A stretch of DNA of 64,000 bases, from contig CADCII010000019.1 in NCBI GenBank assembly GCA_902801515.1, positions 1-64,000 on the forward strand. Reading direction: 5' to 3'. The DNA is from an uncultured Lachnospiraceae bacterium (GTDB lineage Bacteria > Bacillota > Clostridia > Lachnospirales > Lachnospiraceae). Below, one piece after another: positions 5,471 through 43,039 of this stretch (position 1 is its first letter; each line of letters opens with the position of its first letter). Both the position numbers and the translations under genes were made by a program. The notes beneath the pieces were generated by a model, which saw only the letters and a program-made list of their open reading frames with translations, was not told the origin of the DNA and searched no databases.

Positions 5471-5499
5471 TTGACAAATTAATAACAATATGGCATAGT
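5471..5499 (+). promoter_or_regulatory. Likely promoter of the hdr-flx-frd-fum-mdh operon
   Basis: A perfect TTGACA at 5471-5476, a 17-base spacer and CATAGT (four of six matches) at 5494-5499, in the gap ahead of the first hdr gene. I see no clear operator sequence. Confidence 0.5.
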
Positions 5500-5582
5500 A
5501 TTGCACGATAATCATCATCCCCGAAGTGCATTTATTTCTGATAAATGCCACAAAATGTCAGGGAAAGGAGTCGACTGTACCT

Positions 5583-6389
5583 ATGGATCTGACTTACAGC
5601 TATTTCCCGGGCTGTACTCTCAAGACAAAGGCGAAGGACCTGGATATCTACACCAGAGAAACCGCCGCGGCACTGGGAGTTACGCTAGTGGAGATCGATA
5701 ACTGGCAATGCTGCGGAGGAGTATATCCTCTCGGATCAGATGAGGTTGGCAACAAACTTGCATCTGTCCGCGCGCTCAATGATGCGAAAGAACACGGAAG
5801 AGACCTGGTAACGGTATGTTCCGGGTGTTTTCATGTTCTGAAATGTGTCAACGATGATATGAAGAATGTTCCTGATATCAGGGACCGTGCCAACAGATAC
5901 TCACAGTTTGATGAACCCTATCAGGGAGAGACCAAAGTCCTGCACTATCTGGAACTGCTCAGGGACGCTGTGGGCTTTGACACGATCAGGAAGAAGGCGG
6001 AGCATCCGCTGACCGGACACCGTATCGGCGCCTACTATGGATGTCTTCTGCTTCGTCCGTCGGGCATTCTCGAATTTGATGATCCTGAGGATCCGTCTGT
6101 CATCGAGGATTTCCTGGAGGCGGTCGGAGCGACTCCGGTGAAGTACCAGATGAGAAATGAGTGCTGCGGAGGCTACCGTTCGCTGGAAGAGCCTGAATTT
6201 ACGAACCGTCTTGTCGGGAAGATATTCGCCGACGCAAAGACTTCAGGCTGCGAGGAACTGGTCACCGCATGTCCCCTGTGTTTCTACAACCTTCAGAAAT
6301 ATAATGGTCCGGATAAACTTCCGGTGCGTTACATCTCCGAAGTGCTGGCACAGGCACTGGGTATCGAAGCAGGGAAGGGGGTGCGCTGA
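5583..6389 (+). CDS. hdrB: HdrB-like heterodisulfide reductase subunit (two CCG domains)
   Basis: 268 residues from ATG 5583, preceded by AAAGGAG at 5564; a longer in-frame start at 5526 would add 19 residues with no family similarity. Two CCG (cysteine-rich) domains are complete: FPGC...WQCCGG...CSGC in the first half and YYGC...ECCGG...CPLC in the second. In HdrB these bind the two noncubane [4Fe-4S] clusters that cleave a disulfide. Here it opens an operon with HdrC, HdrA, FlxD-like, FlxA-like and fumarate reductase genes. In this setting it could pass electrons to a disulfide partner or, as in the fused CCG domains of thiol:fumarate reductase TfrB, into the fumarate reductase (inference). 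The stop overlaps the hdrC ATG. Confidence 0.85.
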   Translation: MDLTYSYFPGCTLKTKAKDLDIYTRETAAALGVTLVEIDNWQCCGGVYPLGSDEVGNKLASVRALNDAKEHGRDLVTVCSGCFHVLKCVNDDMKNVPDIRDRANRYSQFDEPYQGETKVLHYLELLRDAVGFDTIRKKAEHPLTGHRIGAYYGCLLLRPSGILEFDDPEDPSVIEDFLEAVGATPVKYQMRNECCGGYRSLEEPEFTNRLVGKIFADAKTSGCEELVTACPLCFYNLQKYNGPDKLPVRYISEVLAQALGIEAGKGVR

Positions 6390-6781
6390 TGACGATTGAA
6401 GAAGCCAATATCCGCGAGGAAGTTCTCCTGATCTGCGGCTGTGATGTCACCAGGTGCATGAAGTGCGGCAAATGTTCCGCTTCCTGTCCCGCCTATGATG
6501 AGTTTGATATCAAACCCCACCAGTTCGCCAGCTACATCGCCAGAGGCGATATGTATGAACTGATGCAGTCGAAGACCATCTGGAACTGTCTTGGATGCTT
6601 TGCCTGTGTGGAGCGCTGTCCCCGCGACGTGCGCCCGGGCAAGCTGATCGACGGTGTCCGCCAGGCAGCCGTAAGGAGAAGGGGCGGCACGCACCTTCAG
6701 CCTGAGGATATCCCGTCCAGGATCGATCCGGATACACCGCAGCAGCTGCTGATGAGCGTACTGCGCCGTGAGAGAAAGTAA
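6389..6781 (+). CDS. hdrC: HdrC-like 4Fe-4S ferredoxin subunit
   Basis: 130 residues, soluble, without the membrane segments of HdrE-linked systems. Two cluster motifs are visible: CMKCGKCSASCPA near residues 29-41 and CLGCFACVERCPR near residues 68-80. HdrC wires electrons between the HdrA flavin and HdrB. Its start overlaps the hdrB stop (TGATG), and hdrA begins 13 bases after its end, so the three subunits are translationally linked in the order B-C-A. Confidence 0.88.
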   Translation: MTIEEANIREEVLLICGCDVTRCMKCGKCSASCPAYDEFDIKPHQFASYIARGDMYELMQSKTIWNCLGCFACVERCPRDVRPGKLIDGVRQAAVRRRGGTHLQPEDIPSRIDPDTPQQLLMSVLRRERK

Positions 6782-6794
6782 GGAGGTGAGTTAA

Positions 6795-8789
6795 GTGCAG
6801 AGAATCGGCGTATTTGTCTGTCACTGCGGAAGCAATATCGCAGCGACGGTCGACGTTGCGGCAGTAGCCGAGGCGGCAAAGAGCCAGCCCGGAGTTGTGT
6901 TCGCAACGGATTACACCTATATGTGCTCTGAGAACGGGCAGAATCTGATTGCAGATTCCATCAAAGAATATGGACTCACCGCCGTTGTGGTATGTTCCTG
7001 TTCGCCGCGCATGCACGAAGCCACCTTCCGCAAGGTGGCCGATAAGGCCGGCCTCAACCCCTATATGGTTGAGATTGCAAACATCCGTGAACAGTGTTCA
7101 TGGGTCCATAAGGATACAGAGATCGGTACTCCGAAGGCGATCAGCCTGATGAAGACCGCTGTGGCGAAAGTCAACCTGAATACTCCTCTGCAGGAAGGTG
7201 AGAGCAAAGTCACCAAGAGAGCTCTTATCATCGGAGGAGGTATTGCAGGGATACAGACCGCGCTCGACATTGCGGATGCCGGCTACAAAGTTGACATTGT
7301 TGAGAAGACTCCGTCGATCGGCGGCCGCATGAGCCAGCTGGACAAGACCTTCCCGACGCTGGACTGCTCAAGCTGTATCCTGACTCCGAAGATGACTGAA
7401 GTCGCCCAGCATGAGAACATCACCCTGTACACCTATTCGGAAGTGGAGAGTGTTTCCGGCTATGTCGGAGACTTCACGGTGGAGATCCGCAGGAAAGCCC
7501 GCTATGTGCACGAGGATATCTGCACGGGCTGCGGACTGTGCATGACGAAATGTCCGTCTAAGAAGGCGAAAAATGAATTCAACCGCGGTCTCAATACCAG
7601 GACTGCGATCTACACACCGTTTGCCCAGGCGATCCCGAATGTACCGGTGATCGATACAGAGGCATGCATTCATTTCCGCACAGGAAAGTGCGGTATCTGC
7701 GCCAAGAACTGCGCGGTGCAGGCGATCGATTACGAGCAGAAGGATGAGATCATCACCGAGAAGTACGGTGCGATCGTTGTCGCTACCGGATTCGATCTGA
7801 TCGATCTGAAGCCATTCGGAGAGTATGCGTACAACCTCAGCCCGGATGTAGTATCCTCCCTGGAACTTGAGCGTATCCTGAATGCTGCAGGACCGACCAG
7901 CGGACATCTGCAGCGCATGTCTGACCACAGGCAGCCGAAGGAGATGGTATTCATCCAGTGTGTCGGCTCCAGGTGCGAGGACGACAGGAGAGGCAAACCC
8001 TACTGTTCCAAGATCTGCTGCATGTATACCGCTAAGCAGGCGATGCTGATCAAGGATCACTATCCGGATGTCAACATCCATGTATTCTATATCGACGTCC
8101 GTACGCCGGGTAAGGCGTTCGACGAGTTCTACCGCAGGGCGGTGGAAGACTACGGCGTTGATTACATCAAGGGACAGGTCGGCAAGGTCACGCCTCAGGC
8201 GGACGGCACCCTGCTGGTACACGGCGTGGATATGCTGGACCAGAAGGTAGTCGAGATCAACGCAGACATGGTCGTGCTGGCAGCGGCGGTTGAACCCAAC
8301 CCCGATATCCGCAAGCTCGCGACGATGCTGACCCTTTCCATCGACAACAATAACTTTCTGAATGAAGCCCATCCGAAGCTGCGTCCGGTCGAAGCTGCGA
8401 CTGCAGGCGTATTCATGTCGGGTGTGGTTCAGGGTCCGAGGGATATCCCGGAGACCGTTGCGCAGGCAGGAGCGGCAGCCATCAAGGTAGTCGGCCTGCT
8501 GGCGAAAGATAAACTGAAGACCAATCCGTGTGTGGCACAGTCAGACGAGCTGTACTGCAACGGCTGCTCTGTATGTCAGAATGTCTGTCCGTACGGTGCG
8601 ATCAGCTACACGGAGAAGGAGGTCCGCGATCACGGTGTGCGTGATACGAGGCGTATTGCCCAGGTCAACCCGGCGCTCTGCAAGGGCTGCGGTGCATGTT
8701 CTGTCGCCTGCCCGTCCGGCGCGATGAACCTGAAGGGATTCTCCAACAGACAGATTATGGCGGAGGTGGATACGGTATTATGTCAGTGA
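6795..8789 (+). CDS. hdrA: HdrA-like flavin-bifurcating heterodisulfide reductase subunit
   Basis: 664 residues from GTG 6795, preceded by AAGGAGG at 6780-6786. The N-terminal domain has the HdrA signature CHCGSNI near residues 10-16. A thioredoxin-reductase-like FAD domain follows with IIGGGIAG near residues 145-152. An inserted ferredoxin domain has CTGCGLCMTKCP near residue 243 and a CxxxxxCGICxxxC motif near residue 300. A C-terminal ferredoxin has CNGCSVCQNVCP (~588) and CKGCGACSVACP (~629). In methanogens HdrA holds the bifurcating FAD that splits electron pairs between a disulfide and ferredoxin. Length and motif set match the full-size bacterial form. It overlaps the next gene by ten bases. 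Confidence 0.92.
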   Translation: MQRIGVFVCHCGSNIAATVDVAAVAEAAKSQPGVVFATDYTYMCSENGQNLIADSIKEYGLTAVVVCSCSPRMHEATFRKVADKAGLNPYMVEIANIREQCSWVHKDTEIGTPKAISLMKTAVAKVNLNTPLQEGESKVTKRALIIGGGIAGIQTALDIADAGYKVDIVEKTPSIGGRMSQLDKTFPTLDCSSCILTPKMTEVAQHENITLYTYSEVESVSGYVGDFTVEIRRKARYVHEDICTGCGLCMTKCPSKKAKNEFNRGLNTRTAIYTPFAQAIPNVPVIDTEACIHFRTGKCGICAKNCAVQAIDYEQKDEIITEKYGAIVVATGFDLIDLKPFGEYAYNLSPDVVSSLELERILNAAGPTSGHLQRMSDHRQPKEMVFIQCVGSRCEDDRRGKPYCSKICCMYTAKQAMLIKDHYPDVNIHVFYIDVRTPGKAFDEFYRRAVEDYGVDYIKGQVGKVTPQADGTLLVHGVDMLDQKVVEINADMVVLAAAVEPNPDIRKLATMLTLSIDNNNFLNEAHPKLRPVEAATAGVFMSGVVQGPRDIPETVAQAGAAAIKVVGLLAKDKLKTNPCVAQSDELYCNGCSVCQNVCPYGAISYTEKEVRDHGVRDTRRIAQVNPALCKGCGACSVACPSGAMNLKGFSNRQIMAEVDTVLCQ

Positions 8790-9295
8790 CTGAGAAAATG
8801 ACCTCCCCGGAAGCTGTTCTGGAGAGAGAGAACCTTGCGTACCTCGGGGACGCAAAGGGAAAGAGCGAAGGAGAGTGGACTCCGAAGATCGTAGCATTCT
8901 GCTGCAACTGGTGCAGCTATGCGGGAGCCGATCTGGCAGGAAATAACCGTGCCAGCTATCCGGCTGAGATCAAGATCATCCGTGTTCCGTGCTCGGGACG
9001 TGTGAACCCGCTGTTCATTCTCAGGGCGTTCCAGAAGGGCGCCGACGGAGTCATCCTGTGCGGATGTCATCCGGGAGACTGTCACTATATGACAGGCAAC
9101 TATTATACAAGAAGGAGAATGGCTCTCCTGTTCTCGATGCTCGACTATCTCGGCGTTGAGAAGGGCAGGACCAGGGTCGAATGGGTCTCGGCATCAGAAG
9201 GCGCCAAGTTTGCCGCTACGATGAATGAGTTCGCCGAGAAGATCCGCTCCCTCGGCAGGAACGTGAGATTGGAGGATATCAGATGCAGGAATTGA
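8780..9295 (+). CDS. flxD: MvhD/FlxD-like [2Fe-2S] electron-transfer subunit
   Basis: 171 residues from ATG 8780, preceded by GGAGGTGG at 8762; the reading frame extends further upstream but that part lies inside hdrA. Cysteine motifs typical of the MvhD family are present: CCNWCSYAGAD near residues 40-50, PCSGRV near 73 and CGCHPGDCHY near 95-104. In hydrogenase-linked complexes MvhD delivers electrons from the donor module to HdrA. Here no hydrogenase genes are present and the donor genes look like FlxABC, so the FlxD role (NADH-derived electrons into HdrA) is the better reading. It overlaps the next gene by 13 bases. Confidence 0.85.
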   Translation: MSVTEKMTSPEAVLERENLAYLGDAKGKSEGEWTPKIVAFCCNWCSYAGADLAGNNRASYPAEIKIIRVPCSGRVNPLFILRAFQKGADGVILCGCHPGDCHYMTGNYYTRRRMALLFSMLDYLGVEKGRTRVEWVSASEGAKFAATMNEFAEKIRSLGRNVRLEDIRCRN

Positions 9296-10275
9296 TAAAC
9301 CGTGCAAAAGAACTCCTCGCTGACGGAACTGTGGCGCGTGTGCTCGGCTGGAAGAAAGGCGACTTTGTCTATAATCCGGAACCGCACATTTTCACCAGTG
9401 CTGAGGAGCTCGAAAAAGATTTTGTATATGACGGATTCTGCGGAGCCAACCTGTCCAAGTATATGATCCGTGCTTCGAAGATGGAAGGAAAGACACTGGT
9501 CTTCCTGAAACCCTGCGACACCTTCAGCTTCAACCAGCTCATCAAGGAGCACCAGGTTGTAAGGGAACAGGCTTACATCATCGGAGTCGGCTGCAAGGGC
9601 AAACTGGACCACAGAAAGTTCCAGGAGATGGGACTTGGCGATATCGAGAGCATCACCGGGATCAATCTTATGGATGAATGCGACGTTGCCAAAGTTACGA
9701 CCATCTACGGAGACAAGAAGGAAGTGCCGTTTGCGGATGTGATGCTGGAGAGATGTCATTTCTGCAAGACCAAGGATCACCAGATCTTTGATGAAAAGAT
9801 GCTGGGATCGAAGGAGACCACAGATACAGAGGGAGACCGTTTCGACGAGGTCAGACGGATCCAGGCAATGAGCCCGGAAGAAAGATTCGCCTACTTCCGC
9901 TCTGAACTGTCCAAGTGCATCCGCTGCAACGCCTGCCGCAATGTATGTCCGGCGTGCAACTGCCTGCACTGCGTCTTCGATAATACCAATTATGATACGG
10001 CTCAGAAAGCCAACGCGGATTCATTTGAGGAAAACATGTTCCACATCATCCGCGCATACCACGTGGCCGGAAGATGCACGGACTGCGGAGAGTGCTCCAG
10101 AGTATGTCCGCAGTCGATCCCGCTGCATCTTCTCAACCGGAAGTTTATCCTTGATATGGATGAACTGTACGGAGAATTCCAGGCAGGGTCCGATACTGAA
10201 ACGCCAGGACCTCTGACCGCGTTCACGATGGAAGACCCGGAGGCCGGTGCCGGTCTGGAAAGGAGCAGGGGATGA
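9283..10275 (+). CDS. 4Fe-4S protein of FrhB/FlxB-like type
   Basis: 330 residues. The N-terminal two thirds resemble the beta-subunit fold of F420 hydrogenase/formate dehydrogenase-type proteins (FLKPCDTFSFNQLI, IIGVGCKGKLD, CHFCKTKDH), with extra cysteines that could hold a cluster. The C-terminal third is a two-cluster ferredoxin domain with CIRCNACRNVCPACNC (~residue 212) and CTDCGECSRVCPQ (~264). Desulfovibrio flx operons contain two iron-sulfur proteins between the NAD(P)H flavoprotein and FlxD; this gene and the next fill those places. I cannot tell which equals FlxB and which FlxC. It overlaps its neighbours on both sides. Confidence 0.7.
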   Translation: MQELINRAKELLADGTVARVLGWKKGDFVYNPEPHIFTSAEELEKDFVYDGFCGANLSKYMIRASKMEGKTLVFLKPCDTFSFNQLIKEHQVVREQAYIIGVGCKGKLDHRKFQEMGLGDIESITGINLMDECDVAKVTTIYGDKKEVPFADVMLERCHFCKTKDHQIFDEKMLGSKETTDTEGDRFDEVRRIQAMSPEERFAYFRSELSKCIRCNACRNVCPACNCLHCVFDNTNYDTAQKANADSFEENMFHIIRAYHVAGRCTDCGECSRVCPQSIPLHLLNRKFILDMDELYGEFQAGSDTETPGPLTAFTMEDPEAGAGLERSRG

Positions 10276-11315
10276 AAAAATTATCTATGAACGACGTCCC
10301 TAAGTTCCTGAGCAGTGTGGGAGCGGCTATGGATCTGTTCGTGCCGGTCCGGATGACAGGGGCAACCAACTGGGGCGTCTGGGACAAGGAGCGCGAGGTC
10401 GACCTTCAGACTCTCAAGAGTGTAAAGAGTCCCAAGGATGTCTTCTTCCCGCAGTGCCAGACGATGTATACCGTCAGCAAAGGGGAAGACGGGTTCTCAA
10501 TCGACCCGATGAAACTTACCGATCAGCCGTTCTGCGTATTCGGGATCCGTTCCTGTGACGTCAGGGCACTGACTGTCATGGATCAGGTATTCCTGGCAGA
10601 TCCGGTTGACACCTTCTACAAGGCAAGAAGGGAGCAGGCAATCCTTGTATCCCTTGCCTGCCACCGTCCGGCGCAGACATGCTTCTGCAGCGTGTTCGGC
10701 ATTGACGCCGCACAGTGCGATGGAGCAGATGTGGCGATGTGGATGATCGGAGAAGAACTCTTCCTGGAAGGACAGACAGAAAAAGGAAATGAATTCCTGG
10801 GACAGTTCTCTGAACTGCTCAGTGATACGGATGACACTGCTTCTGTAGAGGAAGAGAAGGAGTCCATCCGCAGCATTACGAAGAAACTTCCCTATTCCTC
10901 ACTGTCACTGGAAGGATGGGGCGCAGGAAAGACGGATGAGAAGTTTGACGATCCCAACTGGCAGCAGCTGTCCGACGCCTGCCTTGCCTGCGGGACCTGC
11001 ACATTTGTCTGTCCGACCTGCCAGTGTTATGACATCAAGGATTATGACACCGGCCACGGTATCCAGAGATACCGCTGCTGGGACAGCTGCATGTACTCTG
11101 ATTTCACGCTGATGGCTGCGGCAAATAACCGTACCACGCAGATGCAGAGATACCGTCAGAGATTCATGCACAAACTTGTTTATTTCCCGACCAACAATAA
11201 CGGCATGTATATGTGCGTCGGGTGCGGACGCTGTGTGGACCGCTGCCCGCAGGCGCTGAACATCGTCAAGGTCATCAAGACCATGGATAAAGGCAGAGAG
11301 GAGGAGAAGGCATGA
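10272..11315 (+). CDS. AsrA/HydB-like 4Fe-4S protein (FlxB/FlxC-like)
   Basis: 347 residues. Similar in layout to subunit A of anaerobic sulfite reductase and the beta subunit of sulfhydrogenase: an N-terminal alpha/beta region with FFPQCQTMYTVSKG and FGIRSCDVRAL, then a ferredoxin domain with CLACGTCTFVCPTCQC (~residue 238) and CVGCGRCVDRCPQ (~316). In those enzymes the AsrB-type flavoprotein is the NAD(P)H-oxidising partner, and that is exactly the next gene. Its ATG overlaps the upstream stop and its stop overlaps the downstream ATG. It probably relays electrons from FlxA-like to FlxD-like; no catalytic site for sulfite reduction (siroheme subunit) is encoded nearby. Confidence 0.75.
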   Translation: MKKLSMNDVPKFLSSVGAAMDLFVPVRMTGATNWGVWDKEREVDLQTLKSVKSPKDVFFPQCQTMYTVSKGEDGFSIDPMKLTDQPFCVFGIRSCDVRALTVMDQVFLADPVDTFYKARREQAILVSLACHRPAQTCFCSVFGIDAAQCDGADVAMWMIGEELFLEGQTEKGNEFLGQFSELLSDTDDTASVEEEKESIRSITKKLPYSSLSLEGWGAGKTDEKFDDPNWQQLSDACLACGTCTFVCPTCQCYDIKDYDTGHGIQRYRCWDSCMYSDFTLMAAANNRTTQMQRYRQRFMHKLVYFPTNNNGMYMCVGCGRCVDRCPQALNIVKVIKTMDKGREEEKA

Positions 11316-12172
11316 GTGAAGATTGTCTGTGCAAGAATCCTTCTTACCGGCAGGATGTCCTGATCCCTCAGGTGGGAGTGATCCGGAAGATCACGCAGGA
11401 GACGCCTGATGTGAGATCCTTTATCGTAACGGCTCCCGGCGGCGGGAGACTGTTCGACCAGATGCCCGGACAGTGCGCGATGATCTGTGCGCCCGGGATC
11501 GGTGAGGCGATGTTCTCCATCACCTCATCACCGACTGAGACAGATTATCATGAATTTTCCATCAAAGAGTGCGGAGTGCTTACCAGCTATCTGCACGGCC
11601 TGAAAGAAGGAGACCAGATCCTGGTCAGGGGACCTTACGGCAATCATTTCCCCGTGGATGACATCTACAAGGGCAAGGATCTTCTCTTCATTGCAGGCGG
11701 TATCGGACTTGCCCCGCTTCGCTCCGTCATCAATTACTGTCTGGCGAAACGCGAAGACTACGGAAAGATCGATATCCTGTACGGATCCAGGTCAAAAGCT
11801 GATCTGGTAAAACTGGAAGAGATCAGGGAAGTCTGGGAGAAGGCTCCGGACACTAAAGTCTGGCTGACCATCGACCGCGAGGACCCGGAGTGGGACGGAC
11901 ATGTGGGATTTGTTCCCAGCTATCTCACCGAAGCCGGTTTCTCGACAGACAAGACCGCCATCATCTGCGGTCCGCCCATCATGATCAAGTTCTGTCTGCA
12001 GAATCTGGAACAGCTCGGATTCAGCAGAGACCAGGTATATACCACACTGGAACTGCGTATGAAATGCGGGATCGGCAAATGCGGAAGATGTAATATCGGT
12101 TCCAAATATGTCTGCAAGGACGGGCCGGTATTCCGCTGCGACGAGATCGACCAGCTGCCCGATGAATACTGA
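11312..12172 (+). CDS. flxA: FlxA/AsrB/PyrK-like FAD-NAD(P)H oxidoreductase subunit
   Basis: 286 residues with the ferredoxin-NADP reductase fold. An FAD-binding barrel comes first (MFSITSSPT near residues 67-75), then an NAD(P)-binding domain (FIAGGIGLAPLRS near residues 128-140 and CGPPIM near 220). The C-terminus has MKCGIGKCGRCNIG...C, the four-cysteine [2Fe-2S] site of the PyrK/AsrB group. This is the likely entry point for NADH in the complex. I infer NADH rather than NADPH from the FlxABCD precedent, not from the sequence. Confidence 0.82.
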   Translation: MSEDCLCKNPSYRQDVLIPQVGVIRKITQETPDVRSFIVTAPGGGRLFDQMPGQCAMICAPGIGEAMFSITSSPTETDYHEFSIKECGVLTSYLHGLKEGDQILVRGPYGNHFPVDDIYKGKDLLFIAGGIGLAPLRSVINYCLAKREDYGKIDILYGSRSKADLVKLEEIREVWEKAPDTKVWLTIDREDPEWDGHVGFVPSYLTEAGFSTDKTAIICGPPIMIKFCLQNLEQLGFSRDQVYTTLELRMKCGIGKCGRCNIGSKYVCKDGPVFRCDEIDQLPDEY

Positions 12173-12209
12173 TCAGATACAGGCACAGTTGTAAGAAGAG
12201 GGAAAAACA

Positions 12210-12884
12210 ATGGAAGAAATGGTAAATGTTTATTTCTACGGAAAGCGGTACAGCGTCCCCGGTGATCTGACCATTATCGCGGCATGGGAATATGCGGGCT
12301 ACACTCTGAAGAGAGGTGTCGGCTGCCGTCACGGATTCTGCGGCGCATGCGCGACGATCTACCGCATCAAGGGACAGAATGAACTGAAGACGTGTCTTGC
12401 CTGTGAGAAGCAGGTCGAGGACAACATGTATGTTGCCTCGATCCCGTTCTATCCGCAGGACAAGCGCAGCTATAACCTGGAGGAACTTGAGGTATCCGAC
12501 CAGATCATGATGGAACTCTATCCGGAGATCTACGCATGCATCGGCTGCAATGCCTGCACAAAGGCATGTCCGCAGGAACTGCAGGTCATGCAGTACATTG
12601 CTTATGCGCAGCGCGGAGAGATCGAGAAGTGTGCGGAGGCATCCTTCAACTGCGTAATGTGCGGATGCTGCACAACCAGATGCCCGGCAGGGATCTCCCA
12701 CCCGTATGTGGGACTTCTCTCAAGGCGTCTCACAGGCAAGTATATCGCGCCGAAGTGCGGACATCTTGCCGACAGAGTCAAAGAGGTAAATGAAGGCAAG
12801 TTTGATGAGGGCCTGAAGGAACTCATGCAGATGCCTGCAGCCAAGATCCAGGAACTGTACAACAACCGTGAGATCGAGAAATAA
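12210..12884 (+). CDS. frdB: Fumarate reductase/succinate dehydrogenase-type iron-sulfur subunit
   Basis: 224 residues. The N-terminal [2Fe-2S] ferredoxin domain has GCRHGFCGACATIY...TCLAC (residues ~35-70), and the C-terminal domain has CIGCNACTKACPQ (~110) and CVMCGCCTTRCPA (~149). Both later motifs are of the C-x2-C-x2-C-x3-CP type, so two [4Fe-4S] clusters are likely, rather than the [3Fe-4S] centre of quinone-linked enzymes. It matches the ferredoxin half of thiol:fumarate reductase TfrB but lacks the CCG domains, which here are supplied by the separate HdrB. It sits 37 bases after the flxA-like gene and 12 bases before the flavoprotein gene. No membrane-anchor genes follow. Confidence 0.82.
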   Translation: MEEMVNVYFYGKRYSVPGDLTIIAAWEYAGYTLKRGVGCRHGFCGACATIYRIKGQNELKTCLACEKQVEDNMYVASIPFYPQDKRSYNLEELEVSDQIMMELYPEIYACIGCNACTKACPQELQVMQYIAYAQRGEIEKCAEASFNCVMCGCCTTRCPAGISHPYVGLLSRRLTGKYIAPKCGHLADRVKEVNEGKFDEGLKELMQMPAAKIQELYNNREIEK

Positions 12885-12896
12885 GGGAGGGTGAAG

Positions 12897-14528
12897 ATGT
12901 ATACCGAAGAAATGCTCGAATCCATCAAAAAGGTCGAAGCGACCAGAGATGAACGTCTTCATACCGAGCCGAGAAGACTGACAGCAGAAGAGAAGGACAG
13001 TCTTCTGCGCAGATGGCATCCGGATTATCGTGAAGATGCTTTTGCCGAGATCAAAGTCGGACCGAACCGCGGTGAGAAGGCTCCGAAGCAGCTGACTCAT
13101 CTGCTTCATTCCAACAGCAGGCTGTATGGCCTGAATCTTGACCTGAGCCGGATCGACTATGATACCGATGTCCTTATCATCGGAGGAGGCGGAGCGGGGT
13201 GCTCCGCAGCGATCGAGGCTTCCAACGCAGGAGCCGACGTACTGGTCGTCACCAAACTGCGTCTGGGCGACGCCAACACCATGATGGCTGAAGGCGGCAT
13301 CCAGGCAGCGGACAAACCGAACGACAGCCCCACACAGCATTATCTGGACGCGTACGGCGGAGGTCATTTCGCAGCGAAGCCGGAACTGGTCAGAGAACTG
13401 GTCAGCAAGGCTCCCGAAGCGATCCAGTGGCTGGAGAGCCTGGGCGTCATGTTCGACAAGGAAGCAGACGGCACGATGGTGACCACCCACGGCGGCGGCA
13501 CCAGCCGCAAGAGAATGCATGCGGCAAGGGACTATTCCGGCGCAGAGATCATGAGAACGCTGCGCGACGAAGTCCAGAACCGCGGCATCCATGTGCTTGA
13601 GTTCACCTCTGCGGCTGAACTGATCAAGGATACCAAGGGACAGGTCGCTGGCGCTGTACTCATGAACATGGAGACCGATGACTATCTGGTCTGCAGGGCA
13701 AAGACGGTCATCCTGGCGACAGGCGGCTGCGGAAGACTGCACTATCAGCACTTCCCGACGTCCAACCACTACGGCGCGACAGCTGACGGCCTGATCCTTG
13801 CATACCGCGCGGGAGCTCCGCTGCTGTATCAGGATACGATCCAGTATCATCCGACCGGAGCCGCGTTCCCGGCACAGATTCAGGGTGCGCTGGTCACTGA
13901 GAAGGTCCGCTCCCTCGGAGCACAGCTGGTCAATATCGACGGCGAAGCATACATGCATCCGCTCGAGACAAGAGACGTTGCCGCAGCAGGCATTATCCGT
14001 GAGTGCAGAGGCAACAAGAAAGGCCTTACCACTCCGCTCGGCCATGCTGTATGGCTTGATACGCCGATGATCGAAGCGATCAACGGCGAGGGTACGATCG
14101 AGGCAAGCATCCCGGCCATGCTGAGACTGTTCTATCAGTACGGCATCGACATGAGAAAAGTCCCGGTCCCGGTATATCCGACCCTTCACTATCAGAACGG
14201 CGGCGTGGAGATCGACGCAAAGTGCTTCTCCAAGACCATCGACAACCTGCTCTGCGCAGGTGAGGTGACAGGCGGCGTACACGGCCGCAACAGACTGATG
14301 GGCAACTCGCTTCTGGATGTCATCGTATTCGGCCGCGACGCAGGCATGAGTGCAGCCGAGAAGGCAAAGAGCGTCAAACTCGGCAACATGACTCTGAATC
14401 ATGTGACGGAATACGCGCAGGCACTGCAGAGCGCAGGAGAGCATACCAACGATGTAAGCCCGATGCTTCTGCCGAAGTATGCAAGACATGCACGTGAGTT
14501 TGAGTGGAGAGGATTCCGTTACGCATGA
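12897..14528 (+). CDS. frdA: Fumarate reductase flavoprotein subunit (soluble type)
   Basis: 543 residues from ATG 12897 (GGGAGG at 12885; GTG 12891 also possible). The FAD-binding fold begins VLIIGGGGAGCSAAIEASNAGADVLVV (written in part) near residue 95. Dicarboxylate-site residues are conserved: His in IQYHPTG, Arg in KVRSLGAQLV, His in LHYQNGG and Arg in GRNRLMGNSL. The position that carries the FAD-linking histidine in quinone-linked FrdA/SdhA is Asn127 (DANTMMAEGG), so the flavin is probably not covalently bound, as in soluble fumarate reductases and L-aspartate oxidase. I prefer fumarate reductase over NadB because of the adjacent FrdB and fumarase genes. An N-terminal extension of ~80 residues is unusual. 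Confidence 0.85.
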   Translation: MYTEEMLESIKKVEATRDERLHTEPRRLTAEEKDSLLRRWHPDYREDAFAEIKVGPNRGEKAPKQLTHLLHSNSRLYGLNLDLSRIDYDTDVLIIGGGGAGCSAAIEASNAGADVLVVTKLRLGDANTMMAEGGIQAADKPNDSPTQHYLDAYGGGHFAAKPELVRELVSKAPEAIQWLESLGVMFDKEADGTMVTTHGGGTSRKRMHAARDYSGAEIMRTLRDEVQNRGIHVLEFTSAAELIKDTKGQVAGAVLMNMETDDYLVCRAKTVILATGGCGRLHYQHFPTSNHYGATADGLILAYRAGAPLLYQDTIQYHPTGAAFPAQIQGALVTEKVRSLGAQLVNIDGEAYMHPLETRDVAAAGIIRECRGNKKGLTTPLGHAVWLDTPMIEAINGEGTIEASIPAMLRLFYQYGIDMRKVPVPVYPTLHYQNGGVEIDAKCFSKTIDNLLCAGEVTGGVHGRNRLMGNSLLDVIVFGRDAGMSAAEKAKSVKLGNMTLNHVTEYAQALQSAGEHTNDVSPMLLPKYARHAREFEWRGFRYA

Positions 14529-14574
14529 TTTTTCCCGGTCGGACAAAACCGGCAGGGTGAGGGAGGAGCAGGAT

Positions 14575-15417
14575 ATGAGAGAGATTGACGTAAGCGTTAT
14601 TACGGATACGATCGAGAAGATGTGCATCTCTGCAAATGTGCATCTTCCGAAGGATATGCAGAAGGGGATCAAGAGCTGCAGAGCATGCGAGGACGGCCCC
14701 ATCGCGCAGACGATCCTGGACCAGATCATCCAGAACTTTGAGGTTGCCGACACGGAACAGGTTCCGATCTGCCAGGACACAGGCATGGCCTGCATCTTCC
14801 TGGAAGTAGGACAGGAAGTTCATTTCACAGGAGGCAGCCTGTACGACGCAGTCCATGAAGGCGTCCGCCGCGGATACACGAAGGGATATCTCCGCAAGTC
14901 CGTGGAAGCGGATCCGATACGCCGCGGCAACACAGGCGACAATACGCCGGCTATGATCACGACAGACATCGTCCCCGGTGATAAAGTGAAGATCACTGTG
15001 GCGCCGAAGGGCTTCGGATCCGAGAACATGAGCGCACTGCGCATGTTCAAGCCTTCAGCGGGACTTCAGGGCATCAAGGACTTCATCCTTGAGACAGTGG
15101 AAAAGGCAGGACCGAACCCCTGCCCGCCGATCGTAGTAGGAGTCGGCATCGGAGGAAACTTCGACCATGTCGCGCTTCTGGCGAAAAAGGCGCTGCTGCG
15201 CCCGGTCGATTCACACAATGAAGACCCGTTCTATGCACAGCTGGAGGACGAGATGCTGGAGAAGATCAATCAGCTCGGCATCGGCCCTCAGGGCTTCGGC
15301 GGAAGGACAACTGCGGTCGGAGTGAATATCGAGACACTGCCGACCCATATCGCGGGCATGCCCTGCGCGGTCAATATCAGCTGCCATGTGACCAGACATG
15401 AATCGGAGGTGATCTGA
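14575..15417 (+). CDS. Class I fumarate hydratase, alpha subunit
   Basis: 280 residues from ATG 14575, with GGGAGGAG at 14561; an upstream in-frame start inside frdA is not supported. It belongs to the oxygen-sensitive [4Fe-4S] hydro-lyase family, with PICQDTGMACIFLEVG near residues 63-78, RRGNTGDNTPAM near 117-128 and the Fe-S/substrate region GIGGNFDHVALLAKKAL near 187-203. It interconverts malate and fumarate together with the beta subunit, whose ATG overlaps its stop. L(+)-tartrate dehydratase is a related alternative, but the operon contains the enzymes on both sides of fumarase in the reductive pathway. Confidence 0.9.
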   Translation: MREIDVSVITDTIEKMCISANVHLPKDMQKGIKSCRACEDGPIAQTILDQIIQNFEVADTEQVPICQDTGMACIFLEVGQEVHFTGGSLYDAVHEGVRRGYTKGYLRKSVEADPIRRGNTGDNTPAMITTDIVPGDKVKITVAPKGFGSENMSALRMFKPSAGLQGIKDFILETVEKAGPNPCPPIVVGVGIGGNFDHVALLAKKALLRPVDSHNEDPFYAQLEDEMLEKINQLGIGPQGFGGRTTAVGVNIETLPTHIAGMPCAVNISCHVTRHESEVI

Positions 15418-15980
15418 TGGAAAGACATATTGATCTGCCTTTGACAGAAGAGATTGCAAAAACGCTCCATATGGGGGATAATGTCTACCTGAACGGAGTC
15501 ATCTACACCGCAAGAGACGCAGCCCATGAGCGCATGACCGATCAGCTGGCTGAAGGGATCCCGATCCCGTTTGACACTACGGATGCTACGATCTACTATG
15601 TTGGTCCGACGCCGGCAAGACCGGGGACAGTGATCGGTTCCGCAGGACCGACCACAGCAGGCCGCATGGATAAATGGGCTCCCCAGATGATCTCGCTCGG
15701 CGCGAGAGGAATGATCGGCAAAGGCGCACGCTCCAAAGAAGTGATCGAAGCCATGAAGAAATACCATGGCGTCTACTTCGGAGCTATCGGCGGCGCAGGC
15801 GCGCTGCTTGCAAAGTGCATCGTTGACTGCGAACTGATCGCCTATGAAGACCTGGGACCGGAAGCAATCAGAAAACTGACTGTGAAAGACTTCCCGGTGA
15901 CGGTGCTGATCGATTCCGAAGGAAACAACTTATACGAGCAGGGCAGAAAAGAGTATCTTGAAGCCCGGGACAAGGAGTAA
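15417..15980 (+). CDS. Class I fumarate hydratase, beta subunit
   Basis: 187 residues, the swivelling beta domain of class I fumarases: GDNVYLNGVIYTARDAAHER near the N-terminus and the conserved YYVGPTPARPGTVIGSAGPTTAGRMD (in part) near residues 61-86, followed by GKG near 101. The ATG overlaps the alpha-subunit stop, so the subunits are made in equal amounts. The gene precedes a small membrane protein by six bases. Confidence 0.9.
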   Translation: MERHIDLPLTEEIAKTLHMGDNVYLNGVIYTARDAAHERMTDQLAEGIPIPFDTTDATIYYVGPTPARPGTVIGSAGPTTAGRMDKWAPQMISLGARGMIGKGARSKEVIEAMKKYHGVYFGAIGGAGALLAKCIVDCELIAYEDLGPEAIRKLTVKDFPVTVLIDSEGNNLYEQGRKEYLEARDKE

Positions 15981-15986
15981 AGAAAT

Positions 15987-16328
15987 ATGAATGGGATTAC
16001 TGATCTTCTGGAAGCGCTGATGATCATCTGCTTCGGTCTGTCATGGCCGATCTCGATCAGAAAGTCCTGGTTTGCCAGGACAGCAAAGGGAAAGAGTGTA
16101 TTTTTTGAAGTATTCATCGTGATCGGTTATATCTTCGGTATCATCCGCAAGTTCATACTGATCAACCAGGCAGAGAGTGCCGCTTCCCTTGGCTTCCTGT
16201 TCTATTTCGCTCTGGCGTTCTATTTCATCAATGTAATAGAGATTACGATCGATATCCTGCTGTGGGTGCGTAATACAAGACTTGACAAGGCCGCAGAGAG
16301 AGCATCGAAAAAAGCAGTAAAACAGTGA
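15987..16328 (+). CDS. Small membrane protein, possibly PQ-loop/SemiSWEET-like
   Basis: 113 residues with about three hydrophobic segments (residues ~6-24, 38-58 and 66-92) and a basic C-terminal tail. The stretch ICFGLSWPISIRKSWFARTAKGKS, with Ser-Trp-Pro followed by a charged loop, recalls PQ-loop (SemiSWEET) half-transporters, but I am not certain of the family. It is embedded in the operon, six bases after fumarase beta and 71 before mdh, so a role in moving a C4 acid or another product of the pathway is possible; this is only a guess from position. Confidence 0.6.
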   Translation: MNGITDLLEALMIICFGLSWPISIRKSWFARTAKGKSVFFEVFIVIGYIFGIIRKFILINQAESAASLGFLFYFALAFYFINVIEITIDILLWVRNTRLDKAAERASKKAVKQ

Positions 16329-16399
16329 TCCGGACGGATTGAATCTGTTCGGGGAGGACTGTTCTGAAAGGACTGTCCGGAAAGGAAAGGTCTATCATT

Positions 16400-17344
16400 A
16401 TGGCTACAAAGATTACAATTATCGGTGCCGGCTCTGTAGGCGCTACAATGGCATATACGCTTTCACTGGAGACTCTGGCGACAGAGATTGTCCTGATCGA
16501 TATCAATAACAAGAAGGCAGACGGAGAGGCTCTGGATATCCTTCAGAGTACCGCATACCGCGATCCGATCGATATCAAGGCAGGAACTTATCAGGATGCG
16601 GCTGGCTCCAACATTGTCATCATCACGTCAGGCATGCCCAGAAAGCCCGGCATGACCAGACTTGATCTTGCGAAGACGAATGTAAACATCATCCGTGATA
16701 TCGCGTCCCAGATCGCCCCGGTCTGTCCGTACGCAAAGTACATCATCGTATCGAACCCTGTCGATATCCTGACTTATGTATTCATGAAAGAGTCAGGAAT
16801 TCCGGAGAGCCAGATCATCGGATCCGGAACACAGCTCGATACCGCGAGACTCAGAAGCCTTCTGGCGGAAGAACTGTCCATCTCTCAGAAGAACGTTCAC
16901 GCATACATCTTCGGCGAGCACGGCGATTCTTCCTTCGTACCGTGGTCCGTTGCACATATCGCGGGAATTCCGATTCCGGAATACTATGAAGTATACAATC
17001 CGAACCCCCAGTACAAGTATGATGAGGCTCATATCATCGACTATGTGCGCAAGTCCGGAAGTCTTGTGATTGCTGAGAAAGGTGCGACTTTCTATGCTGT
17101 AACCGTTGCAGTCATCAAGCTCTGCAGAATCCTTCTTTCCAGCGACAATGCCGTCACAACAGTTTCCACCATGCTTCACGGTGAGTACGGCATCCGCGAC
17201 GTCTGCCTGAGCATCTCCTGCATGATCGGTCCGAAAGGCGTATCCAAGAGGATTCAGCTGCATCTGACTGACGAGGAGATCGCCAAACTTCAGGCATCTG
17301 CAGCAAAACTCAGAGAGCTGCTTGATCAGATCTACGCTGACTGA
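16400..17344 (+). CDS. mdh: LDH/MDH-family dehydrogenase, probably malate dehydrogenase
   Basis: 314 residues. NAD-binding GAGSVGATMAY is at residues ~9-19, the catalytic pair is in TARLR and GEHGDSS (His174), and the cofactor-site Asp is in VLIDIN, which favours NADH. Overall it looks like an L-lactate dehydrogenase (GSGTQLDTARLR, GEHGD), and automatic annotation would call it that. However, the substrate-specificity loop reads GMPRKPGMTRLDL, with Arg81 at the position of Gln102 in lactate dehydrogenases. In this family Arg there selects oxaloacetate/malate, and Gln selects pyruvate. With fumarase and fumarate reductase just upstream, malate dehydrogenase is the better call. It is the last gene of the co-directional run before a hairpin at 17429. 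Confidence 0.8.
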   Translation: MATKITIIGAGSVGATMAYTLSLETLATEIVLIDINNKKADGEALDILQSTAYRDPIDIKAGTYQDAAGSNIVIITSGMPRKPGMTRLDLAKTNVNIIRDIASQIAPVCPYAKYIIVSNPVDILTYVFMKESGIPESQIIGSGTQLDTARLRSLLAEELSISQKNVHAYIFGEHGDSSFVPWSVAHIAGIPIPEYYEVYNPNPQYKYDEAHIIDYVRKSGSLVIAEKGATFYAVTVAVIKLCRILLSSDNAVTTVSTMLHGEYGIRDVCLSISCMIGPKGVSKRIQLHLTDEEIAKLQASAAKLRELLDQIYAD

Positions 17345-17463: not shown

Positions 17464-17491
17464 TATTGAGGTGACAGTGAGGTTTAATGAA

Positions 17492-30681: not shown

Positions 30682-30721
30682 CATTTTCGCGGACAGATTT
30701 AAGGAGAGCGTGAGGACTATT

Positions 30722-32073
30722 ATGGCAAAGGAAAAGATCTATTTTATCGTAGGAAGCCAGGATCTGTACGGTGAAGAGTGCCTGAAGCAGGTCGCTGCTG
30801 ATACCAAAGAGATGGTTGACTTTCTGAACAGCAAGATGGGTGAAGTTGTTGACATCGAGCTTCTTCCGACTGTCGAGACTTCTGAAGGCTGCATCAAGGA
30901 TATGCGCATCGTTGAGAATGATGACGACTGCGTCGGCGTTATCACATGGATGCATACCTTCTCACCGGCCAAGATGTGGATCAAGGGACTCCAGATCCTC
31001 AGCAAGCCGCTGCTTCACCTTCATACTCAGGCCAATGAGAAGCTTCCGTACGATACGATCGATATGGACTTCATGAACCTGAACCAGGCTGCCCATGGCG
31101 ACAGAGAGTACGGATTCATCGTATCCCGCCTGGACATTCCTCATCAGGTAGTTGCAGGCTACTACAAGCATGACGACGTAGTGGACAAGATCCGCAAGTT
31201 CGCGGAAGTTGCCAAGGCGATCGCATTTTCATCCAGTACGGCTGGGAGACAAACTACTATGCACTGGGTGATCTGGTCAAGATCATCAACGAAGTGACGG
31301 ATGCAGAAGTCGACAGCAAGATGGAAGAGTACACTTCCAAGTACACAATGAAGACTTCCAACATCGAAGCAGTCCGCGAGCAGGCGAAGTACGAAGTCGG
31401 ATTCGACAAATTCCTGGCAGAAACCGGCATCGGCGCATTTACCGATACCTTCCAGGACCTGTACGGATTGAAGCAGCTTCCGGGAATCGCAGCACAGAAC
31501 CTGATGGGAAGAGGCATCGGCTTCGGACCAGAAGGCGACTACAAGATCGCTGCATTCTCCGCAGTACTGATGAAGATGGCAGAAAACCGCGAGGGAAGCA
31601 CCGGATTCATCGAGGACTACACCTACGACCTGACCGAGGGTGAAGAGCTTGAGCTTGCATCCCATATGCTGGAGGTTCCGGTATCCTTCGCAGCAATCCC
31701 GCTTGGAATCGGCAACAAGGAAGACCCGGCCCGCCTGATTTTCGACGGTGTCACCGGAGATGCGATCCAGGTCACACTGGTAGACATGGGCGACCATTTC
31801 CGCATCATCTGCGCTGACATCGAGATGGTCAAGCAGCCCAAGCCGATGCCGAAGCTCCCGGTAGCCCGCATCATGTATCGCCATAAGCCCAACTTCGCGA
31901 TCGGAACCGCAGCATGGTGCTACGCAGGCGGCGCACACCACTCCGTCGTATCCACGGCCCTGACCAAAGAAGACATCGCGAACTTCGCACGCTTCACCGG
32001 CACCGAGCTTATCATCATCGACGAGAACACCACCGAAGCAGACCTGCTGAAGTTCTGCGGAAGAAAATTCTGA
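30722..32073 (+). pseudogene. araA: L-arabinose isomerase, disrupted
   Basis: The first ~168 codons (to ~31224) are normal AraA: YFIVGSQDLYGEE, TWMHTFSPAKMWI, IDMDFMNLNQAAHGDREYGF. The frame then breaks. AraA resumes at ~31231 in another frame with IQYGWETNYYALGDLVKI and runs to 32073. About 27 residues expected between the halves, including the FGDNMR-x-VAVTEGDK block, are absent, so a deletion rather than a single-base error explains it. In the second half the segment between HMLEV and PLGIG is shorter than in other AraA proteins and lacks the metal-binding His, and the C-terminus is ~8 residues short. Glu in FIEDYTY and HMLEV and the AGGAHH His remain. The promoter still looks intact. Confidence 0.8.
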
Positions 32074-41742: not shown

Positions 41743-43038
41743 GTGGGAGAGGATTATTTAAATCTGTATATTGGGATAGCAGGTCTCCTGATCAGCATTC
41801 TTGGTCTGGTGCAGGCGCTGATCAGTTCCCACTTTGAGCGGTGGATGAAGAGGTTCTTCATTTATTTTTTCGGTATCATGGTTGGCATTGCTGTTTTTAA
41901 TCTGATCGGCCAGTATGTCTCCTTGCAGCCTGACTTGATACATGCAAGGATCTTCCGTTTCACCTTGTTTTGGGAATCATTCCTTCCGTCTTTGCTTATG
42001 CTGCTTCTGACCGTCTTCCTGTTACTGTCAAGCGGCGAGACGGACTGGAAGAGGAGTCGTCTTTTTCATATAGTGATGGCGCTGTGGATCATATATGTCG
42101 CATTATTGATCTATGTTCAGTTTTCTACGGTGATATACAGCATTGACGATAACAATGTGTATCGACGCGGTCCTCTGTATCCTTTGCTGCTGGCACCGCC
42201 GGCCCTGATCATGGCGATCGATGCCATTGCTCTTTGGCGAAGGCGACAGCATTTATCAGCAAAACAGCGGCTCGCGTTCGACATCTACATCATTGTTCCC
42301 TTGAGCTCCATGCTGATCCAGATGTTTTTCTATGGCATATATACGATCCTGCTGGGGTCTTCACTTGCAGCGTTGTTCATGTTCAACTACATCTGGATCG
42401 ACCAGTCTGAGCGGTATTATCAGCAGGTTCAGGAAAATAAGCAGCTCAGGATAGAGATCATGCTCAGCCAGATACAGCCGCATTTTCTGTACAATTCTCT
42501 TGGCGCGATCCAGAGCCTGTGCAAAACGGATTCAGTGGCTGCAGAAAAGGCTGTGTCAACATTTTCGAGGTATCTTCGGGGAAATATGGATTCACTTTTC
42601 AATGACAAAGCGATTCCATTCGAGCAGGAGCTGAAGCATACAAAGCTCTACCTGGAACTGGAACAGCTGCGATATGAAGACGCGCTTCAGGTGAGCTATG
42701 ATCTGCAGTGCACTGAATTCAATATTCCGACACTCACCCTACAGCCATTGGTTGAAAATGCTGTACGTCATGGCGTCAGGGGGAAACTGAGCGGGCGCGG
42801 AAGCGTTCTGATCACGACAAATGAATACCCGGACCGGTACGAGGTCTCGGTTTCAGACGATGGTCCGGGTTTTGACCCTTCGCAGAAGGTACAGGATGGA
42901 CATTCCCATATCGGTCTTGCAAATGTCAGCGAGAGACTGCAGCGTGTTGTCGGCGGCAGTCTGAGCGTTCATTCTTCGCCGGGAGCGGGAACAACAGTGG
43001 TGATCACCATTCCAAAGGAATCGGAAGGGGTTGGCTGA
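41743..43038 (+). CDS. LytS/YehU-like membrane sensor histidine kinase
   Basis: 431 residues from GTG 41743. About seven membrane segments (residues ~5-215) form the sensor, with almost no extracellular domain. The His_kinase domain has the phosphoacceptor QIQPHFLYNSL (His247), typical of the LytS/AgrC-like HPK8 group. The ATP-binding domain has PLVENAVRHGV (N box, ~330), VSDDGPGFDPS (~370) and GLANVSERL (~389). The response regulator starts two bases after the stop. The position between giant genes 1 and 2 suggests that it controls the surface island. Confidence 0.88.
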   Translation: MGEDYLNLYIGIAGLLISILGLVQALISSHFERWMKRFFIYFFGIMVGIAVFNLIGQYVSLQPDLIHARIFRFTLFWESFLPSLLMLLLTVFLLLSSGETDWKRSRLFHIVMALWIIYVALLIYVQFSTVIYSIDDNNVYRRGPLYPLLLAPPALIMAIDAIALWRRRQHLSAKQRLAFDIYIIVPLSSMLIQMFFYGIYTILLGSSLAALFMFNYIWIDQSERYYQQVQENKQLRIEIMLSQIQPHFLYNSLGAIQSLCKTDSVAAEKAVSTFSRYLRGNMDSLFNDKAIPFEQELKHTKLYLELEQLRYEDALQVSYDLQCTEFNIPTLTLQPLVENAVRHGVRGKLSGRGSVLITTNEYPDRYEVSVSDDGPGFDPSQKVQDGHSHIGLANVSERLQRVVGGSLSVHSSPGAGTTVVITIPKESEGVG

Positions 43039-43039
43039 G

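Follow-up and report, generated by a model that had tools for sequence, protein, structure and literature searches.

The route by which Blautia and other quinone-poor gut Clostridia form succinate, with or without a gain of energy, is a question touched by a gene cluster in the stretch of DNA analyzed here. This stretch, referred to as the window, comprises positions 1 to 64,000 of contig C19 of an uncultured Lachnospiraceae bacterium, whose 3.08-Mb genome is distributed over 94 contigs. Thirteen genes on the plus strand, spanning 5583 to 17344, encode in this order HdrB, HdrC, HdrA, MvhD/FlxD, FlxC, FlxB, FlxA, FrdB, FrdA, the alpha and beta subunits of fumarase, a small membrane protein, and a malate-type dehydrogenase. 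We regard it as probable that the cluster specifies a soluble NADH-dependent, electron-bifurcating (ferredoxin-reducing) fumarate reductase together with the enzymes that would make fumarate from oxaloacetate. This proposal draws on gene content, intact motifs, conserved linkage, the co-occurrence of particular HdrB and HdrA clades with FrdBA, and the presence of Rnf and phosphoenolpyruvate carboxykinase in the genome. An earlier note on this DNA had listed the same 13 tightly packed genes and linked them to fumarate metabolism. Both statements hold, except that the malate type of the last gene is doubtful.

In the proposed mechanism, NADH would donate electrons at FlxA, from where they would pass via FlxB, FlxC, and MvhD to the flavin of HdrA, and each pair would be split there. 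One electron would be transferred to ferredoxin, and the other would travel through HdrC, HdrB, and FrdB to the FAD of FrdA, where fumarate would be reduced to succinate. The sum would be 2 NADH + fumarate + 2 Fd(ox) -> 2 NAD+ + succinate + 2 Fd(red). We infer that the subunits form one physical complex, with HdrB passing electrons to FrdB along this path, that the reaction bifurcates, and that NADH is used rather than NADPH. Using the redox potentials of PMC5861303 and, for the lower ferredoxin value, PMC12773636, the bifurcating reaction would yield about -49 kJ/mol at a ferredoxin potential of -420 mV and -33 kJ/mol at -500 mV (standard potentials). Reduced ferredoxin could drive Rnf, and fumarate reduction would therefore conserve energy without a quinone. 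Rnf (RnfC, 445.7 bits) and an ATP-dependent phosphoenolpyruvate carboxykinase were found in the genome. A search of the same genome for MenB gave no match, and one for MqnC gave only a match below the cut-off.

Strand and spacing suggest a single operon. With the starts of three genes set at the ATGs at 5583, 8780, and 14575, neighboring genes overlap by at most 13 bases or lie at most 71 bases apart; for these three genes, the search queries began one or two codons off (5586, 8774, and 14569). Between 5150 and 18300, 14 promoter-like sites compared with a mean of 10.0 in shuffled sequence. The 10 terminator-like sites of the operon region equaled the shuffled mean of 10.0, so the end of the transcript is not demonstrated.

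All of the components of a FlxABCD-HdrABC system were identified, namely HdrA with FAD and ferredoxin domains, HdrB, HdrC, FlxA, FlxB, FlxC, and FlxD/MvhD. The ten CCG cysteines of HdrB, arranged in two C..CC..CxxC motifs, were kept in 60/60 sequences, and the eight cluster cysteines of HdrC in 61/61. HdrA matched the HdrA2 model with 819.9 bits over residues 3 to 661; this is under the cut-off of 1100, and the last part of the model was matched by MvhD. Over its full length, HdrA also matched the solved methanogen HdrA 5odc_A (E 2.3e-202), with its cysteines conserved. When the genome was searched for CCG proteins at E <= 0.001, both matches obtained lay in the HdrB of the operon, and no other CCG protein was found.

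FrdA residues H320, T336, E337, R340, R361, H433, and R468 are identical to aligned residues of Escherichia coli FrdA, which we take to be its fumarate-binding residues, and were invariant in 81/81 sequences. FrdA thus combines the FAD-binding fold and the dicarboxylate residues of complex II and quinol:fumarate reductases. The position of the FAD-linking His of the E. coli protein, presumably H44, is taken by Asn129 in the window and by Asn in 81/81. Loss of this His leaves fumarate reduction intact and impairs succinate oxidation, and the replacement therefore fits the reductive direction of FrdA. The predicted structure of FrdA (predicted local distance difference test score [pLDDT], 66.6) had 1kf6_A as its best fold match, in agreement with a fumarate reductase fold; the conserved N-terminal extension was modeled with uncertainty. 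A family search of FrdA gave no match to Succ_DH_flav_C (PF02910). Its best NCBIfam model was TfrA, at 340.8 bits far under the cut-off of 718. L-Aspartate oxidase, with 271.9 bits, was rejected in view of the higher TfrA score and the adjoining fumarase. In FrdB, the [2Fe-2S] motif had its fourth Cys in 75/76 sequences, and both CxxCxxCxxxC motifs were complete in 76/76. A family search for a CCG domain in FrdB found none, and its TfrB match spanned residues 12 to 77 only. The FrdB profile matched solved structures only weakly, and its top match, 8vd6_A (CAP REPEAT), was taken as spurious because it spanned just 42 C-terminal residues. The sole membrane protein seen in the operon matched no membrane anchor family.

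The arrangement is strongly conserved among close relatives. At least 585 relatives of FrdA were present in genome contigs, and 80 of them were mapped; 58 of these loci extended at least 8 kb upstream and 59 at least 5 kb downstream, the remaining 22 and 21, respectively, being too short. The closest FrdA among the matches listed was that of Porcincola intestinalis (82%). In 58/58 loci, the gene for FrdA was preceded on its own strand by those for HdrB, HdrC, HdrA, MvhD, FlxC, FlxB, FlxA, and FrdB; both fumarase subunits lay downstream in 53/59, and a gene of the lactate/malate dehydrogenase (LDH/MDH) family lay upstream in 43/58. The hdr-flx-frd-fum cluster is present in Blautia glucerasea (L022). 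In 200 genomes of the family, FrdB was found in 20 and HdrB in 22, the latter in 20/20 carriers of FrdB. The two genomes with HdrB and without FrdB (G050 and G021) hold a Flx-Hdr set whose HdrA, MvhD, and FlxA are 53 to 58% identical to those of the window and whose HdrB is only 27 to 30% identical. An aspartase-like gene, recognized by eye, precedes frdBA in L133 and was counted in favor of the proposal.

We then considered a sample of 398 genomes of the phylum, including that of the window. FrdB was found in 39, that is, in 38 others belonging to 15 families. HdrB matches of at least 214 bits occurred in 26 of the 397 other genomes, covering 9 families, and every one of them was among the 38 with FrdB, compared with an expected number of 2.5 (hypergeometric P = 7e-32, kinship ignored). 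In a tree of HdrB, one branch with 100/100 support had 39 rows on one side, every one of them from an FrdB-positive genome. Of the 35 rows on the other side, 33 came from FrdB-negative genomes and two from FrdB-positive ones, namely L181, which is a second HdrB of G450, and L149; the genome of L149 carries a 217-bit HdrB just beyond the fetched stretch. The HdrB of G290 (L180, 185.7 bits) also fell into the Frd clade, which raised the number of other FrdB-positive genomes with a Frd-type HdrB to 27/38. Addition of eight further HdrB left the branch and the 39-row clade unchanged. HdrA behaved similarly, with a single branch (97/93) separating 35 Frd rows from 22 others. Both trees included 12 of the 80 mapped loci (L021 to L100), and their FrdB-negative loci (31 from the phylum sample and 2 from the family) were picked by best HdrB score, not randomly. 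The HdrA tree excluded 13 loci whose best HdrA was below 45% identity and read TGA, which interrupts HdrA of many FrdB-negative loci, as X (45 rows otherwise).

The association does not depend on neighborhood. In seven genomes of the Frd clade (L173 to L178 and L180), the HdrB-HdrC-HdrA-MvhD-FlxC-FlxB set and frdBA are on different contigs or far apart; in G290, which consists of one contig, the distance is about 1.5 Mb. The stretch of L175 ends before FlxA. Because the Frd-type HdrB clade was seen in this sample only in genomes that carry FrdB, even unlinked, and HdrA splits alike, HdrB is probably dedicated to FrdBA. Thr11, Pro48, Leu49, Val84, and Arg87 of HdrB (the count starts at codon 5586, so that numbers are one lower than if counted from the ATG) are conserved in 95% or more of the Frd clade, are rare in the other clade, and adjoin the cysteines of the first cluster. 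The position of Leu49 is His in 35/35 of the other clade. Methanogen HdrB 8rvv_B has Phe there (alignment read by eye), so that Leu49 gives no more than a hint of a changed acceptor site.

Around the 38 other FrdB, HdrA-family genes occurred in 16 stretches, HdrC and HdrB without HdrA in 5, only an HdrC-like gene in 4, and no Hdr match in 13. The HdrC-HdrB-FrdB(-FrdA) clusters of L134, L140, L145, L147, and L150 showed no HdrA or Flx match in the fetched stretch, one of them being on a 3.8-kb contig. L151 (f59) encodes HdrC-HdrB-HdrA, an HdrA-like protein of 1092 residues, a protein of 472 residues that includes an MvhD part, and FrdBA; after frdBA come genes that resemble 2-oxoacid:ferredoxin oxidoreductase by eye. 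The locus is reminiscent of a cluster of tubeworm symbionts, and the other f59 loci gave similar match maps. At the place of Cys194 of the window's HdrA, 16 of the 22 HdrA from FrdB-negative genomes carry an in-frame TGA, mostly within DCSAxISTPK, and 0/35 Frd-type HdrA do. This TGA looks like a putative selenocysteine codon.

Several observations weigh against the proposed bifurcating fumarate reductase. Neither HdrB nor HdrA lay beside frdBA in 17 of the 38 other FrdB-positive phylum genomes. Linkage of FrdBA to Hdr thus holds throughout the window's own group but not across the phylum; merely occasional adjacency had been named as contrary evidence in the earlier note. Eleven FrdB-positive genomes lacked a Frd-type HdrB by score; G452 among them has HdrA-family genes beside frdBA at a contig end, which leaves ten of 38 in which Frd-type Hdr was not found. 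G266, G270, G329, G494, and G578 gave no HdrB match at 1e-20, and G232, G238, G274, G279, and G580 hold lower-scoring HdrB, a subset of which (eight) was placed, all outside the Frd clade. Since these ten genomes carry FrdB, FrdBA seems able to draw electrons elsewhere. FlxB and FlxA had no match in the f59 stretches, and FrdBA adjoins small multihaem cytochromes (by eye) in L161 and L165. An HdrC-like protein with a membrane part (by eye) is encoded beside FrdBA in L164, and HdrC matches were found in L166 and L167. These cytochromes and the membrane protein suggest other electron inputs. The predicted structure of FrdB, built from 21 close relatives, was poor (pLDDT 55). A second SdhAB-type pair lies on contig C40 (24219 to 29107; L213:3220-8108), with an SdhA-type flavoprotein and, after it, an SdhB-type protein that contains Fer2_3; succinate therefore need not come only from the system in the window, as this pair may make or use it too. 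Upstream of the pair is a gene for a 183-residue multi-helix membrane protein, and genes resembling FtsX/LolD-type exporters of the ATP-binding cassette class (by eye) lie between and around. Extracts of Blautia luti, in which frdAB transcription is high, reduce fumarate with methyl viologen and were modeled with a plain NADH-dependent enzyme (PMC12773636, 2026); in the available main text of that paper, the words Hdr and Flx are absent. Linkage and co-inheritance, finally, fall short of proving a complex or bifurcation.

Such a model leads to an alternative in which Hdr-Flx merely relays electrons from NADH to FrdBA and ferredoxin is not reduced. The exergonic step alone would yield -68 kJ/mol, and PMC5861303 cautions against taking homology to a bifurcating enzyme as proof. 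Yet HdrA is full-length with conserved cysteines, seven extra subunits would seem wasteful for a plain NADH:fumarate reductase, and the authors of PMC7282089 favor ferredoxin coupling for the similar operon of Pseudoclostridium thermosuccinogenes, so we consider this relay unlikely. We give a smaller chance to HdrB reducing a disulfide or oxidizing a thiol, with FrdBA coupled by way of a small thiol (the arrangement of methanogen Tfr) or by metabolism alone, and no shared complex. HdrB retains all ten cysteines of disulfide-reducing HdrB, TfrA is the best model for FrdA, and ferredoxin "and thiols" are named as Flx-Hdr acceptors in PMC7282089. Against this, FrdB shows no CCG domain match, unlike TfrB, the HdrB clade tracks FrdBA even when unlinked, and the five residues near the first cluster's cysteines, including Leu49, differ between the clades.

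The genes that come after the operon, fchA at 17471 and a folD-like open reading frame (by eye) at 18190, would fit an Hdr-Flx that serves the one-carbon pathway as a bifurcating methylenetetrahydrofolate reductase, as in Moorella, and merely neighbors frd-fum. This is very improbable: the genome's single match to that reductase is on contig C13, the only CCG protein found is the HdrB whose clade goes with FrdBA, and only L089 among the 80 mapped loci has fchA and folD matches. It is hardly credible that FrdA reduces urocanate, acrylate, or a similar alkene instead of fumarate; urocanate reductase is among its solved relatives, but the residues aligned with the fumarate site are conserved, and fumarase and LDH/MDH genes accompany FrdA in most loci. 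The splitting of NADH electrons between ferredoxin and fumarate, as suggested in the earlier note, is the best-supported mechanism, given the intact HdrA, FlxA, and FrdA, the Hdr clade that occurs with FrdBA, and Rnf, but it is unproven.

The features of the operon region are listed in Table 1.

Table 1. Coordinates of operon features in the window, and loci whose HdrA contains an in-frame TGA
Feature	Position or locus	Strand	Remarks
Promoter-like site before hdrB	5471..5499	+	TTGACA-17-CATAGT, TG ahead of second hexamer; consensus match only
HdrB	5583..6389	+	Two CCG domains, ten cluster cysteines
HdrC	6389..6781	+	Dicluster family, two [4Fe-4S] motifs
HdrA	6795..8789	+	FAD subunit, proposed bifurcation site
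MvhD/FlxD	8780..9295	+	PF02662 (FlpD/MvhD), 187.8 bits; another in-frame ATG upstream at 8696
FlxC	9283..10275	+	Predicted Fe-S relay; weak FrhB/FdhB part; 7bkb_E, E 1.7e-24
FlxB	10272..11315	+	AsrA/HydB-like predicted Fe-S relay
FlxA	11312..12172	+	NAD(P)H-FAD oxidoreductase, AsrB/HydG/PyrK-like; 9nez_C, E 1.3e-57
FrdB	12210..12884	+	One [2Fe-2S] motif and two CxxCxxCxxxC[PT] [4Fe-4S] motifs
FrdA	12891..14528	+	Fumarate reductase flavoprotein, FAD_binding_2; ~90-residue N-terminal extension
Fumarase alpha	14575..15417	+	Fumerase, 415.8 bits (cut-off 276)
Fumarase beta	15417..15980	+	Fumerase_C, 273.1 bits (cut-off 238)
113-aa membrane protein	15987..16328	+	Three likely helices by eye; family searches without match
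LDH/MDH-family dehydrogenase, read as malate dehydrogenase	16400..17344	+	Family scores and loop PRKPGMTR by eye
HdrA with in-frame TGA	L183, L186-L191, L193-L195, L200, L202, L203, L206, L207, L210

The last gene exceeded two NCBIfam cut-offs, those of L-lactate dehydrogenase (322.8 bits; cut-off, 303.55) and of a malate dehydrogenase subfamily (302.9 bits; cut-off, 283), and its four best solved matches were all named L-lactate dehydrogenase. Family scores therefore do not decide between the two. Lactate dehydrogenase was set aside on the loop PRKPGMTR alone, which we take to be a malate dehydrogenase signature, and the assignment as malate dehydrogenase is doubtful. The gene for the 113-aa membrane protein was found in 9 of the 59 related loci with sufficient downstream sequence. 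More than 900 bases lie between frdA and fumA in 28 loci, with a frame of 376 to 472 residues inside, on the plus strand in 25. The one such frame tested by family search, that of L025, is an AspT/YidE/YbjL exchanger; one member of that family is a succinate exporter (PMC9527358). The small membrane protein and the longer frame, instead or in addition, are perhaps transport parts of the system.

Elsewhere in the window, the L-arabinose isomerase gene (30710 to 32073) may be split by a frameshift or an assembly error, with AraA_N in one frame (30710 to 31297) and a 259-residue frame starting at 31294. Three very large open reading frames (2348, 2222, and 2160 aa) between 33777 and 57293 surround a two-component system at 41743 to 43843. 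The first, which was the one scanned, has a SpaA-type domain, and the three are therefore likely surface adhesins.

Bifurcation by this enzyme, if real, would alter the ATP yields of such fermentations and add fumarate to the few acceptors of bifurcation, and the Frd-specific HdrB would offer a testable contact point. Tentatively, and with less confidence than in the mechanism itself, we go further and suggest a distinct Frd-type Hdr lineage, whose HdrB would serve as a fixed wire into FrdB and no longer reduce disulfides, with fumarate as the high-potential acceptor of flavin-based bifurcation. FrdBA might then be a portable unit run by Hdr-Flx, by HdrC-HdrB alone, or by cytochromes, and many gut Lachnospiraceae and Oscillospiraceae might gain ATP from succinate formation via Rnf.

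The operon shares parts with several known systems. FlxABCD-HdrABC of Desulfovibrio vulgaris, reportedly described by Ramos in 2015, likewise has HdrABC, an MvhD-type FlxD, and an NADH-oxidizing Flx set, whereas FrdBA and fumarase are included in the operon of the window. The clade of the window's HdrB and HdrA stands apart from those of FrdB-negative genomes (33 HdrB and 22 HdrA rows), D. vulgaris itself being outside the trees. Methanogen thiol:fumarate reductase TfrAB is soluble, as proposed for the enzyme of the window; among family models, FrdA scores best with TfrA, though far under the cut-off, and FrdB of the window has no CCG match. In the 8-methylmenaquinol:fumarate reductase SdhABE, an HdrB-like CCG subunit also serves a fumarate reductase. 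The window differs from it in an SdhE score of 123.6 bits of the 500 at the cut-off and in the outcome of the MenB and MqnC searches. MetFV-HdrABC-MvhD of Moorella thermoacetica similarly joins an Hdr module to a substrate reductase and takes its electrons from NADH, the substrate subunits being MetFV instead of FrdBA.

The earlier note knew of no described complex of this composition, which does not stand. In tubeworm symbionts, a related flxABCD-hdrABC-tfrAB-korABCD cluster has Hdr-Flx and fumarate reductase genes interspersed, and the authors suggested that Flx-Hdr, TfrAB, and KorABCD form a complex (PMC6315080); its setting is the reductive tricarboxylic acid cycle and its reductase is named a TfrAB homolog, whereas the window holds fermentation genes and an FrdB without CCG. 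Nearly the same operon is the "succinate operon" of P. thermosuccinogenes, for which a coupling of fumarate reduction to that of ferredoxin was proposed (PMC7282089, citing a 2019 preprint of Koendjbiharie and van Kranenburg on a fumarate reductase that may take part in bifurcation). It was about 4-fold upregulated under CO2 limitation, not significantly for all subunits. By gene content, both operons comprise fumarate hydratase, seven Flx-Hdr genes, and two fumarate reductase genes (FrdAB, CDQ83_RS03325-20, in P. thermosuccinogenes). That operon has a hypothetical protein, perhaps a succinate transporter, and fumarase as one locus tag, whereas the window has two fumarase subunits, the small membrane protein, and the malate dehydrogenase-type gene. 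The idea of an electron-bifurcating fumarate reductase operon was thus already proposed for another species; what is new is the wide spread of the operon among gut Clostridia and an Hdr clade that goes with FrdBA even where the genes lie apart.

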